Of a stretch of 64,000 nucleotides of DNA, positions 41,812-46,331 are shown one piece after another (the stretch's first letter is position 1; each line of letters opens with the position of its first letter). The translations under genes were made by a program, and so were the position numbers. Under the pieces are notes generated by a model, which was not told the DNA's origin, searched no databases, and saw only the letters and a program-made list of their open reading frames with translations. Source of the DNA: Leptolyngbya sp. NIES-3755 (GTDB lineage Bacteria > Cyanobacteriota > Cyanobacteriia > Leptolyngbyales > Leptolyngbyaceae). The stretch spans positions 124,001-188,000 of the forward strand of contig AP017309.1 in assembly GCA_001548435.1 (NCBI GenBank), in the 5' to 3' direction.

Positions 41812-43557
41812 ATGGAGACTCGAAGAGTGTCTGGAAAAGTAAAAACATATCAAGTACAAGTGTATATGACCGCACGAGAAAAAGGCTTCACGCAAGTGGA
41901 AGCCGCAAGTCTGGCTGGCTTTTCTGCCCGCACCGGGCAGCGAATCGATGCAGGTGTGCATCAACCGAATCGGGGACGAGTGCGGGACTGGAGAAGCACT
42001 GAAGACCCATTAGCAGAGGTTTGGGAAACCGAACTCGAACCGATGCTAAAAGCTGCCCCACAACTGCAACCAAAGACGTTATTCGAGGAATTGCAGGAGC
42101 GCTATCCAGGTAAGTACGTGAAAGTACTTCGCACTCTGCAACGACGAGTCCGAGCGTGGAAAGCCTTGCACGGGGAAGCGAAAACGGTGATGTTCGAGCT
42201 ACGGCATGAACCGGGGATGATGGGCTTATCCGACTTCACCGAACTTAAAGGCATCGAGATCACCATCGGAGGTCAGCCATTCGAGCATCTGCTGTATCAT
42301 TATCGGCTTGCCTACAGCGGGTGGCAGTACGCTCAAATCATCCAGGGTGGGGAAAGCTTCATTGCCTTGTCCGAAGGATTGCAGAATGCGCTGTCTGCCT
42401 GTGGTGGAGTGCCAAAACAACATCGCACCGATAGTCTGAGTGCGGCGTACCGCAACATGGGCGGAGTCAGAAACAAGCCATTGACCCGATTGTATGATGA
42501 CTTATGCAATCATTATCGAATGCAGCCCACGCGCAACAATACAGGGATTGCTCATGAAAATGGAGCAATTGAATCGCCGCATGGACACCTGAAAAATCGC
42601 ATCAAGCAAGCGTTATTGTTACGTGGAAGTTGTGACTTTGACAGCATCGCAGAGTATCAAGCGTTAATCAATCGAGCGATTACTAAACTGAATGAGTTGC
42701 ACACGGCGAAGATTGAAGAAGAGAAACAGTTCCTGCAACCATTACCGAAATATCGGGTTCCAGATTATGAAGTGCTGACTGCCACCGTGAGTTGCCGCAG
42801 TACGATTGATGTGCGCTGCGTGTTGTACACGGTTCCCGCTCGACTGATTGGACGACAACTCGAACTGCATCTCTATCACGACCGGATTGTCGGCTATCTC
42901 AATCGCCAACCAGTGGTCGAACTGTCGCGCATTCGCGTCACTGACAAAGCCAAACGCCGCACTCGCAGTATTAACTATCGTCATGTGGCAGACGGACTGC
43001 GCCGCAAGCCGAGAGCGTTTCTGTACTGCACCTGGCAACAGGAACTCTTACCAAATGATACCTGGCGCGATCTTTGGCAGCAATTGAAAACGCAATTTGA
43101 CCTCGATAGTGCAGCGGTGCTAATCGTCGAAGCCTTGTACATTGCTGCCGTTCAAGATAAAGAAACTGCGGTTGCAACCTATTTGCAAGCTCAGCTTGCA
43201 ACAGCCAGTTTGACGCTGGTGGGATTACGTCAGCGGTTTCAGCTACTGAGTGACCCCAATTTGCCCAGTCTCACGATTCCGCAACAAGACCTCACGAACT
43301 ATGACCAACTCCTCAGAAGTCGAAGCACCCATCACACCGTACCAGAGCCTCAGTCTGCACCTCAAACGGCTGCATCTGTCACAGATGCTCGGTCATTGGG
43401 AAACACTCGAACAACAAGCGATGCAGGAAGGTTGGTCTTACGCTCAGTTTTTGCTGGCTCTGTGCGAGTTGGAGGCACAACGACGATGGAGCGTTCGGAT
43501 TCAACGCGCCCTCACAGAAGCCCAGCTTCCAAACGGAAAAACGGTTTCCAACTTTGA
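41812..43557 (+). CDS. istA: IS21-family transposase IstA
   Basis: The 581-residue protein has an N-terminal helix-turn-helix (FTQVEAASLAGFSARTGQRI) and an integrase core with DDE residues: LSDFTELKGI, HRTDSLSAAYRN and HENGAIESPHGHLKNRI. It is somewhat long because its C-terminal tail overlaps istB by about 250 bp. It is intact. Confidence 0.92.
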   Translation: METRRVSGKVKTYQVQVYMTAREKGFTQVEAASLAGFSARTGQRIDAGVHQPNRGRVRDWRSTEDPLAEVWETELEPMLKAAPQLQPKTLFEELQERYPGKYVKVLRTLQRRVRAWKALHGEAKTVMFELRHEPGMMGLSDFTELKGIEITIGGQPFEHLLYHYRLAYSGWQYAQIIQGGESFIALSEGLQNALSACGGVPKQHRTDSLSAAYRNMGGVRNKPLTRLYDDLCNHYRMQPTRNNTGIAHENGAIESPHGHLKNRIKQALLLRGSCDFDSIAEYQALINRAITKLNELHTAKIEEEKQFLQPLPKYRVPDYEVLTATVSCRSTIDVRCVLYTVPARLIGRQLELHLYHDRIVGYLNRQPVVELSRIRVTDKAKRRTRSINYRHVADGLRRKPRAFLYCTWQQELLPNDTWRDLWQQLKTQFDLDSAAVLIVEALYIAAVQDKETAVATYLQAQLATASLTLVGLRQRFQLLSDPNLPSLTIPQQDLTNYDQLLRSRSTHHTVPEPQSAPQTAASVTDARSLGNTRTTSDAGRLVLRSVFAGSVRVGGTTTMERSDSTRPHRSPASKRKNGFQL

Positions 43558-44125
43558 CTTTTCCCACTGCCCAAACTTCAACCCGGCTCCTCTAATGCAG
43601 CTTGCCGATGATCCCGCTTGGCTCACTCGTGCTGAGAATTTGTTGATGTTCGGGGCAAGCGGGGTCGGCAAGTCGCATCTAGCAGCAGCGGTTTCACGTC
43701 GCATGGTGGAGTTTGGGAAGCGGGTCAAATTCTGCTCGGCTTTGGCACTCGTGCAGCAGTTACAGCAAGCCAAGCTGCAACTGCAACTGCAATCGATGCT
43801 GAAGAAGCTTGACCGCTTTGACCTGCTCGTTCTCGATGATTTAGGGTATGTCAAAAAGTCAGAAGCTGAAACCTCGGTGCTGTTTGAACTGATTGCTCAT
43901 CGCTACGAACGTCGCAGTTTGCTCATCACCGCAAATCAGCCGTTCAGTCAGTGGGACGCGATCTTTACCGATTCGATGATGACCGTGGCAGCGGTTGACC
44001 GACTGGTGCATCATGCCTTGATTGTCGAGATTCAGACCGAGAGTTATCGCAAACAATCGGCAGTCTCGCGGTCTGGCGCTTCGAGTGCCGACAAACAGGC
44101 GGTTCACACCAAGCGAACACCGTAG
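43301..44125 (+). CDS. istB: IS21-family ATPase IstB
   Basis: The 274-residue helper AAA+ ATPase has Walker A FGASGVGKSHLAAAV, Walker B FDLLVLDDLGY and a sensor region SLLITANQPFSQW. IstB directs IstA to target DNA. The ATG at 43301 (MTNSSEVEAPI) gives the family's usual length and lies inside the istA gene. Confidence 0.92.
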   Translation: MTNSSEVEAPITPYQSLSLHLKRLHLSQMLGHWETLEQQAMQEGWSYAQFLLALCELEAQRRWSVRIQRALTEAQLPNGKTVSNFDFSHCPNFNPAPLMQLADDPAWLTRAENLLMFGASGVGKSHLAAAVSRRMVEFGKRVKFCSALALVQQLQQAKLQLQLQSMLKKLDRFDLLVLDDLGYVKKSEAETSVLFELIAHRYERRSLLITANQPFSQWDAIFTDSMMTVAAVDRLVHHALIVEIQTESYRKQSAVSRSGASSADKQAVHTKRTP

Positions 44126-44141
44126 GTGCAGTGAAGCTCTC

Positions 44142-44249
44142 TTAATTGTCGTTTCGATCTTAATTGTCGTTTCGAGCTTAATTGTCGTTTCGAGCTTAAT
44201 TGTCGTTTCGAGCTTAATTGTCGTTTCGAGCTTAATTGTCGTGTGATTG
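44142..44249 (+). repeat. Six tandem 18-bp repeats at the IS21 right end
   Basis: TTAATTGTCGTTTCGAGC is repeated with starts at 44142, 44160, 44178, 44196, 44214 and 44232; the first unit has ATC and the last is diverged. These are probably transposase binding sites in the element's right end. Confidence 0.85.
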
Positions 44250-44329: not shown

Positions 44330-44491
44330 TTTTATTTTTACTCACTTGTCTTTTTGGCTGTCGCGACTCACCCAGATGCTTGACATCTAACAGATCTTGG
44401 AATTGCGAAAAATTGATGTATAAAACTGAGCGGCTGCTTCGGCTTGATCATCAAACCATAAACAGGGGGTAATCGTGTGATTGATTTGCAT
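44330..44491 (-). pseudogene. VOC/PhnB-like gene fragment, frameshifted
   Basis: From the ATG at 44491 the frame reads QINHTITPCLWFDDQAEAAAQFYTSIF and then stops soon after NSKI; another frame continues LDVKHLGESRQPK. ITPCLWFD and EAAxFYxSIF are hallmarks of PhnB-like VOC proteins. It follows the DGPF gene on the same strand, a usual neighbour set, and is cut near the IS21 right end. Confidence 0.6.
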
Positions 44492-44508
44492 GACGGTATT
44501 CCTCAAGT

Positions 44509-44865
44509 TCACTGCGCTGGAAGCCGTGGGATTTCAAGAACGGGGCGAATTTCGACTGTGCCGACTTTTGCACCTGGAATGCGGGTAGCGATCGCAATGG
44601 CTTCATCCAAATCCTGAGCGTTGACGAGGTAGAACCCGCCTAATTGTTCACGGGTTTCGGCAAAAGGACCATCGGTCACAAGCGATTTGCCGTCGCGGAC
44701 TTGAACACTGGTCGCTGTTGCAACAGGATGGAGCGGAGCAGATGCTACAAATTTTCCCTTTGTATGAAGATCCTGGGCGAGTTGAGGAGATTCGACATAG
44801 CAATGCTCCCGCTCGGTATCGCTCATGGCGTTCTCCTCCATATAGATCAGCAGCAAATATTTCAT
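44509..44865 (-). CDS. YCII/DGPF-domain protein, ECF42 partner
   Basis: The 118-residue protein is a YCII-related domain with MKYLLLIYMEE at the start, the signature VTDGPFAETREQLGGFYLV and DLDEAIAIATRIPGAKVGTVEIRPV. DGPF proteins are the conserved partners of ECF42 sigma factors; their biochemical role is unresolved. A strong ribosome binding site (AAAGGAGG) precedes the ATG at 44865. Two matching promoter-like elements lie upstream, and the ECF42 sigma gene is divergent. Confidence 0.9.
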   Translation of the reverse strand: MKYLLLIYMEENAMSDTEREHCYVESPQLAQDLHTKGKFVASAPLHPVATATSVQVRDGKSLVTDGPFAETREQLGGFYLVNAQDLDEAIAIATRIPGAKVGTVEIRPVLEIPRLPAQ

Positions 44866-44887
44866 TGGGTTGCCTCCTTTGTGATTC

Positions 44888-44915
44888 AGTCGAATGGGAG
44901 TTGCCCAAATCGACA
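44888..44915 (-). promoter_or_regulatory. Probable ECF42-type promoter, proximal
   Basis: On the minus strand TGTCGA (44915-44910) and TCGACT (44893-44888) are separated by 16 bp. The predicted start falls just upstream of the ribosome binding site of the DGPF gene. Confidence 0.7.
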
Positions 44916-44970
44916 CCTGACTGCAAAAATTTTGTTTAGTACAATTGAACTTTAGCTCCCTTTGTCAGTC

Positions 44971-44998
44971 AGTCGAACGGGAATCCCTGAAATCGACA
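44971..44998 (-). promoter_or_regulatory. Probable ECF42-type promoter, distal
   Basis: TGTCGA (44998-44993) and TCGACT (44976-44971) are again 16 bp apart, 83 bp from the proximal copy and in the same orientation. The flanking GGTGTCGATTT and TTCGACTGA are also shared. Confidence 0.7.
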
Positions 44999-45026
44999 CC
45001 GTACTCAAGATCTTCTGTGTTGTTTT

Positions 45027-46331
45027 ATGACAGAAATCACTTCAACCTCAAAATCCGATGTGGCTCAAGCGTTGCGAAGCAGTTCCCCCTCTGGGATAAT
45101 CGCCTCTACCTATAGAACGGAATGGGGGCGAATTGTTGCCATCCTGATTCGGTTGGTTGGAGATTTTGATGTTGCTGAAGAAGCCGCACAGGAAGCGTTT
45201 GCAGCGGCAGTCAATCAGTGGGAAGCCAGTGGGATTCCCGATCTTCCCCGCGCCTGGATTATCCGAACTGCACGATACAAGGCGATCGATCTCCTCCGAC
45301 GACGAACCCGACTGACCGAAAAACTGGAGTGGTATGCGGCATCGGGATTAATTCCATCGAGTGAAGAACCAACCTATGACAGTGATGAAATTCCCGACGA
45401 TCGCCTGCGATTAATCTTCACCTGCTGCCACCCGGCACTGGCAATTGAAACTCAGGTGGCACTAACGCTGCGAACGCTAGGTGGACTGGAAACCGACGAA
45501 ATTGCTCGCGCCTTTCTCGTATCAACTGCAACAATGGCGCAACGACTGGTACGGGCTAAACGCAAAATTCGAGATGCTGGCATTCCCTATAAAGTGCCAG
45601 AGTTAACCGCTCTCTCTCCTCGGATAGAGTCTGTGCTGAAGGTAATTTATCTCATCTTTAATGAAGGCTATGCCGCGACCACAGGAGATGCGATCGTGCG
45701 GGCTGATCTCTGCACTGAAGCGATTCGCTTGGGTCAACTGGTACGGCAATTGATGGCACACCAACCCTCTTCAGAAGTCACGGCACTGGTGGCATTGATG
45801 TTGCTGCACGACTCGCGGCGAGATGCCCGTTTGGATGAAGCTGGTGATTTGATTTTGCTGGAAGACCAGGATCGGAGCCGTTGGAACCACCCACAAATCG
45901 CTGAGGCATTGCCCCTAGTGGAAGAAGCCCTGCGCGGTGGAACGGGAGTTTATGCCCTACAAGCAGCGATCGCTGCCCTCCATTGTCAGGCAACCTGTGC
46001 AGAAGAAACAGACTGGGCGCAGATCGTGCGGCTCTATGAGGTGTTGGAACGCTTACAACCTTCACCTATCGTGACTTTGAATCGAGCAGTGGCGATCGCA
46101 ATGGCAGACAGTCCTCAAGCCGCACTTGGACTAATTGATAGCCTCGCCCCAGAATTGGATAGCTATCATCTGTTTCACGCCACTCGTGCGGATTTACTCC
46201 GGCGTGTTGGAGCATTAGAGGAAGCGACCCAGAGCTACAGGCGAGCACTAGAATTGGTGGCAAATGACAGTGAGCGTCACTTCCTGGAGCATCGGTTGCG
46301 CGAAGTTCAACCTAATATTCAGTCCGGCTAG
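45027..46331 (+). CDS. ECF42-type RNA polymerase sigma factor with TPR-like C-terminus
   Basis: The 434-residue protein has sigma region 2 (VGDFDVAEEAAQEAFAAAVNQW, WIIRTARYKAIDLLRRR), region 4 (TLGGLETDEIARAFLVSTATMAQRLVRAKRKI) and the long C-terminal domain with KVIYLIFNEGYAATTGD and TPR-like repeats. This is the SigF/ECF42 architecture, where the C-terminal domain controls activity and DGPF proteins are the regulated partners. The first ATG is used. Confidence 0.93.
   Translation: MTEITSTSKSDVAQALRSSSPSGIIASTYRTEWGRIVAILIRLVGDFDVAEEAAQEAFAAAVNQWEASGIPDLPRAWIIRTARYKAIDLLRRRTRLTEKLEWYAASGLIPSSEEPTYDSDEIPDDRLRLIFTCCHPALAIETQVALTLRTLGGLETDEIARAFLVSTATMAQRLVRAKRKIRDAGIPYKVPELTALSPRIESVLKVIYLIFNEGYAATTGDAIVRADLCTEAIRLGQLVRQLMAHQPSSEVTALVALMLLHDSRRDARLDEAGDLILLEDQDRSRWNHPQIAEALPLVEEALRGGTGVYALQAAIAALHCQATCAEETDWAQIVRLYEVLERLQPSPIVTLNRAVAIAMADSPQAALGLIDSLAPELDSYHLFHATRADLLRRVGALEEATQSYRRALELVANDSERHFLEHRLREVQPNIQSG

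Follow-up and report, generated by a model that had tools for sequence, protein, structure and literature searches.

ECF42 sigma factors have TPR-rich extensions and a conserved YCII neighbor (PMC8999054). The group is widespread, possible modes of action of the extension have been discussed (PMC9023288), and the inducing signal is not given in the available excerpts of these two papers. In S. meliloti, all three promoters listed for the ECF42 member RpoE10 have TGTCGG-N16, followed by TCGTC in two of them and GCGTC in the other (Table 1 of PMC6180224), and in one entry a single letter, 9 nt past the −10 C, is printed in lower case; we have taken it as the transcription start. According to that paper, rpoE10 lies downstream of its YCII gene with one motif reported before the pair, and the YCII gene did not rise upon RpoE10 overexpression, the authors noting a motif that overlaps its start (PMC6180224). 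Further ECF42 members with YCII/DGPF-linked promoters are those of Streptomyces venezuelae and Pseudomonas putida. The main ECF42 promoter paper, by Liu et al. in 2018, reportedly gives TGTCGA as the −35 element. Within the cyanobacteria, DUF6596 sigma proteins, the same protein class as the sigma factor considered here, make up 1.38% of sigma70 homologs; unlike the locus that we describe, the available portion of this survey comes with no promoter motif, gene neighborhood or tandem sites (PMC11119718).

The locus lies on a 325,675-base contig of Leptolyngbya sp. NIES-3755, of which a stretch of 64 kb (the window) was analyzed (Table 1). It holds two exact minus-strand copies of TGTCGA-N16-TCGACT, in the same orientation and offset by 83 bp, just as an earlier note on this DNA had claimed, and these are the only zero-mismatch matches within the window. 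Both point toward the YCII/DGPF gene. The claimed shared flanks are also present, with GACTGACAAAGGGAG following the distal copy and GAATCACAAAGGAGG the proximal one, as is the claimed position 5′ of the DGPF gene (PF03795) and beside an ECF42 sigma gene (PF20239). The A/T tract 5′ of P2 is degenerate in the window (AAGATCTT). Judged from their sequence and setting, the repeats are very probably start sites for the neighboring sigma factor. An in-frame N-terminal extension of YCII that starts inside P1 exists in the window; a P1-equivalent site lies ∼50–73 bp 5′ of YCII in most relatives, and because this distance varies among loci (50, 60, 73) the extension was set aside.

Table 1. Features of the sigma/YCII intergenic region and its flanking genes in the window
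Feature	Position	Strand	Basis
Proximal promoter P1 (predicted)	44888..44915	-	−35 TGTCGA 44915-44910, N16, −10 TCGACT 44893-44888; exact match; TGTCGATTTGGGCAACTCCCATTCGACT
Distal promoter P2 (predicted)	44971..44998	-	TGTCGA 44998-44993, N16, TCGACT 44976-44971; exact match; TGTCGATTTCAGGGATTCCCGTTCGACT
A/T tract, UP-like element, 5′ of P1	44925..44933	-	sequence
YCII/DGPF gene, 118 aa	44509..44865	-	PF03795, E 3.7e-22
Ribosome-binding-like AAAGGAGG of YCII/DGPF gene	44880-44873	-	sequence
Sigma factor gene of ECF42 type (434 aa), divergent to the YCII gene	45027..46331	+	PF04542, PF08281, PF20239
Candidate housekeeping-type promoter of sigma gene, between P1 and P2	44917..44945	+	CTGACT-N17-TACAAT, 9/12 to consensus

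The sigma protein itself has the σ2 (PF04542, residues 34–95) and σ4 (PF08281, residues 130–181) regions, and the domain search of its 434 residues listed no σ3 family. A long C-terminal extension is present as in ECF42 (∼200 residues), with PF20239 (DUF6596) at 199–301 (E 4.4e-36), the sole match to this family in the genome; the search found no TPR family in the extension at E 0.001. The σ2 and σ4 regions, the extension and the ECF42-typical YCII neighbor, here divergent, are thus held in common with RpoE10 and other ECF42 members. So are the elements of the target promoters, a TGTCGA-like −35 (TGTCG across ECF42, RpoE10 included) and a CG[AT]C −10 separated by 16 bases, and both ECF42 systems and the cyanobacterial loci have glyoxalase-like genes among their targets or downstream genes. 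The branch to which the window belongs differs from S. meliloti RpoE10 in its divergent gene order, its −10 core of CGAC and its tandem copies, two or three in number. Named cyanobacterial plasmids carry close relatives of the window's sigma gene. Downstream of YCII, relatives have VOC, SnoaL-like or DUF1579 genes and the window has an IS21-type element (istB-like PF01695, E 4e-62), which may have interrupted a YCII operon. The istA-like ORF of this element has a PF22483 match just below the cut-off, and an 18-bp repeat of 5.7 copies (44141-44242) follows the element, the two together spanning 41812-44242.

The earlier note had presented the repeats as a clear recognition motif for a poorly understood sigma group and had proposed a genome scan. 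The motif is real and conserved, but since the −35/−10 type was already known for ECF42 it is not first revealed here; the new aspect is the place in which this known type of promoter occurs. The note placed the sites and genes correctly but missed the divergent arrangement, the branch-wide array and its varying copy number. In the 6.76-Mb genome, the scan gave four exact matches to TGTCGA-N16-TCGACT, two of them at the locus. The wider pattern TGTCGA-N16-TCGWC had 10 matches, the same pattern read backwards 2. Eight of the 10 lie outside the locus (two being the two strands of one place), seven of them within ORFs of 90 aa or more, the remaining one outside such ORFs but without an A/T tract, and neither scan yielded a convincing further member of the regulon. 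The genome has two further YCII genes: around one (L034) there is no site with up to two mismatches on either strand, and around the other (L033) only one two-mismatch match, on the opposite strand and downstream of YCII.

Sigma homologues were collected from 386 genomes drawn from the phylum (75 at E ≤ 0.001, of which 16 at ≤ 1e-30), 42 genomes of the order (24 at 1e-30) and 217 genomes of a second family (50), and from a one-genome-per-species scan with at least 80 loci (the best 80), with more regions added. Two loci (L037 and L044) that were the same records as L072 and L113 were dropped before counting, L113 and L207, with truncated or broken sigma genes, were dropped from the site counts, and L046, L050 and L216 were also dropped from the tree. 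In the FastTree tree of 166 rows, the window falls in a branch of 73 rows (support 100), 68 with a divergent YCII gene and 5 in which no YCII was found. Within it, 68 cyanobacterial rows form one branch (support 97); L067–L071, from other phyla by record title, lie outside this, and the planctomycete L108, which also has a divergent YCII gene, is placed elsewhere on the tree. Because the 68 loci contain identical sigma proteins (the pairs L065/L150 and L066/L180), we also report 32 non-redundant loci, thinned at 92% sigma identity. Many of the 68 are close relatives. Two plasmid loci match the DNA of members of the 68, L232 (Leptolyngbya boryana) that of L190 and L234 that of L177; L233 and L235 match no other locus of the set in DNA, and L236 is a 54% relative.

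When every match with no more than one mismatch across the 11 core bases is counted as a site, the usual number in the 68 cyanobacterial loci is two (58 loci); five loci have three, four have one (L041, L155, L183 and L205) and one has none (L177). Two or three copies are therefore present in 63 of the 68, with 129 of 135 sites exact, and the non-redundant loci show the same array (26 with two sites, 4 with three and 2 with one). The DNA of L177 is that of the Calothrix brevissima NIES-22 plasmid record L234, in which an IS701-family transposase gene precedes the sigma gene and a search of both strands gave no site. A single copy is present in each of the six divergent loci from outside the cyanobacteria (L067–L071 and L108), in L070 with a mismatch. 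Outside the 68, Chroococcidiopsis sp. CCNUC1 (L235) has two sites and C. thermalis PCC 7203 (L233) has one, and this single site, together with the one- and no-site loci of the branch, indicates that two copies are dispensable. For L198 only two forward sites were counted; its apparent inverted four-site array (∼95–480 from the sigma gene) was rejected, as the inversion has a stretch of N at its center and probably reflects misassembly. In the first 330 bases from the sigma gene of L183, the units nearer to YCII keep CCGTTCGACT, with the −35 replaced by a short repeated sequence.

The last two sites are 81–116 bp apart in 30 non-redundant loci. Mean pairwise differences are 0.018 (distal) and 0.006 (proximal) in the core, 0.27 and 0.33 in the respective spacers and 0.40–0.44 in the flanks; the low core values are partly produced by construction, because the sites were located by their core, and the persistence of the second site is not affected by this. 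Sites have been kept despite insertions of ∼200–300 bp, either between them (L175, L178, L196) or between the array and the sigma gene (L169, L173). Read by eye, L040 has three sites, two of them with identical 28-mers, where there are only two sites in L184 and L187; L205 resembles a unit deletion relative to L192. The second copy would have arisen as a unit of ∼80–100 bp when the cyanobacterial branch in which sigma and YCII genes are divergent was still young, and copies may since have been gained and lost through duplication and deletion of this unit. We consider it unlikely that both are real ECF42 promoters of which only P1 matters, with P2 a decaying duplicate: the mutated distal copies of L155 (where it begins AGTCGA and was left out of the count) and L146 and the degenerate A/T tract of P2 in the window would fit such decay, but the distal copy persists down to 74% sigma identity to that of the window (L206), and in the group L162–L176 the distal and proximal copies keep different spacers. 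That most loci retain two copies is probably due to an effect on output, which a second copy would raise or tune.

Within the inter-site units, a box CGATCGTACT is conserved 5′ of the proximal A/T tract, for example in L038, L039 and L040, and is absent from L195 and L206; read on the other strand, its TANNNT form is kept in nearly all of 30 units, with variable middle bases. For RNA structure between the promoters, no consensus emerged from an alignment of the 30 non-redundant units. Nor, by eye, do the units share a consistent start codon from which a short ORF could begin 3′ of the distal SD-like sequence.

Comparison with other ECF42 loci bears on what the sites are. Of 66 non-redundant sites, 51 have an A/T run of at least 8 within the preceding 20 nt, compared with 4.7% of 20-mers drawn at random from the 900-bp regions around them, in which coding DNA is included. 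Single copies precede YCII in other phyla: outside the branch, 38 of 83 loci with co-directional YCII and sigma genes have a strong site, against 0–1 of 83 in each of five mononucleotide shuffles, by a score set after the sites had been seen, and 45 have none. Of 69 divergent loci, 67 pass the score, and every one of these has CGAC as its −10 core. The same core is found at 11 of the 12 strong sites where YCII lies 3′ of the sigma gene; where YCII lies upstream, the core is CGTC in 22 of the 26 scored loci. Five genomes (G398, G400, G438, G477 and G534) have a CGAC-type and a CGTC-type ECF42 locus together (the pairs L145/L212, L149/L211, L172/L219, L181/L218 and L185/L221). Some sigma residues track the CGAC and CGTC types, for example position 84 (Y/F versus R/H; L121 excluded), in a pattern confounded with phylogeny that is a lead only.

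On the other strand the core reads AGTCGA-N16-TCGACA, and this near-perfect inverted repeat, complete in the planctomycete L108 and in the Terriglobia locus L068, would also suit an operator for a dimeric regulator. We regard this as very improbable, since the CGTC core of the YCII-upstream loci breaks the palindrome, the last base, which a palindrome needs as A, is T in 59 of 60 sites from 30 non-redundant loci, and the gap, the A/T tract and the S. meliloti promoters match a promoter. The same 60 sites bear on a second proposal, in which each site is a bidirectional ECF42 promoter, with the distal one serving the sigma gene (positive autoregulation) and the proximal one YCII. Here the usual closeness of the distal copy to the sigma gene start (by distances extrapolated from alignments) and the single site between both genes in some one-site divergent loci (L067, L069, L071) are in its favor, but the reverse −35 would be AGTCGA and not TGTCGA in 59 of the 60, which makes bidirectional use improbable. 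The forward T is constant in these sites as well, a weak point because copies beginning AGTCG had been excluded beforehand.

The best explanation of the locus as a whole, which we hold with considerable confidence on sequence grounds, would thus be that of tandem promoters read by RNA polymerase with the adjacent ECF42-type sigma factor, as the earlier note had proposed; the adjacent sigma gene, the persistence of the sites in relatives, the single copies in other phyla and the S. meliloti geometry all support it. P1 and P2 would both fire leftward into the YCII/DGPF gene, and the VOC/glyoxalase-like, SnoaL-like, DUF899 or DUF1579 genes that follow YCII in the same direction in relatives probably form an operon with it. 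Transferring the S. meliloti start, 9 nt after the −10 C, to the window predicts starts near 44880 for P1, 15 nt before the YCII ATG, and near 44963 for P2, in agreement with the positions given in the earlier note.

Between P1 and P2, the opposite strand seems to hold a promoter of the housekeeping type that would serve the sigma gene, a function that we infer. A sigma-70 consensus scan of 44400–45100 gave three matches, against a shuffle mean of 0.6; CTGACT-N17-TACAAT is one of these and the other two lie inside the sigma gene. When 30 non-redundant stretches, each an inter-site unit with the site following it, were scanned on the sigma-coding strand, 17 had a match of at least 9/12, compared with a mean of 5.2 and a maximum of 10 after shuffling the unit and keeping a fixed consensus site; the YCII strand (unit plus preceding site) had no such match in 30 stretches. 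The housekeeping-promoter hypothesis was formed on the same sequences on which it was tested, and it underlies the switch model given below rather than being a result. One particular form combines TCGACA, which is the ECF42 −35 in reverse complement, with a TANNNT hexamer of at least 4/6 identity to TATAAT at a distance of 16–18 bp. It is present at 11 of 34 inner sites and in 4 of 9 single-site loci, compared with 1 of 30 distal sites and 1 of 38 sites at co-directional loci (Fisher p = 0.0009 for inner versus co-directional and 0.003 for inner versus distal sites, values that are optimistic because the loci are related). It is missing at 23 of the 34 inner sites, at 5 of the 9 single-site loci and in the window, which has the CTGACT/TACAAT form instead.

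A housekeeping-type promoter lying between the copies hints, short of proof, that ECF42 polymerase, when active, is a hindrance to its own gene. Rather speculatively, the array could be a self-limiting switch, in which the sigma gene is driven by the housekeeping-type promoter embedded on the opposite strand and activation of the YCII operon shuts the sigma gene. ECF42-loaded polymerase on P1 would exclude the housekeeping polymerase, transcription from P2 would cross the sigma-gene promoter, and how strong the feedback is would be set by how many units there are; at some loci the housekeeping −35 (TCGACA) would be the reverse complement of the ECF42 −35 (TGTCGA) itself. We regard a switch of this kind as doubtful.

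Tandem promoters in general, such as rrn P1/P2, place two promoters in series before one transcription unit. Compared with these, the copies described here carry the same alternative-sigma motif, and their number varies between species. In the open-licence literature, no title or abstract among the matches listed concerns tandem ECF42 promoters, a scope that makes for weak support of novelty, and the promoter array of changing copy number in the divergent cyanobacterial branch appears to be the undescribed part. The locus provides a compact, testable promoter set in cyanobacteria. One instance is on a plasmid of strain dg5 of Leptolyngbya boryana, which serves as a genetic model species. Its natural one-, two- and three-copy versions make the effect of promoter copy number directly testable, and the five genomes with both CGAC and CGTC loci do the same for a single −10 base separating paralogous sigma factors.
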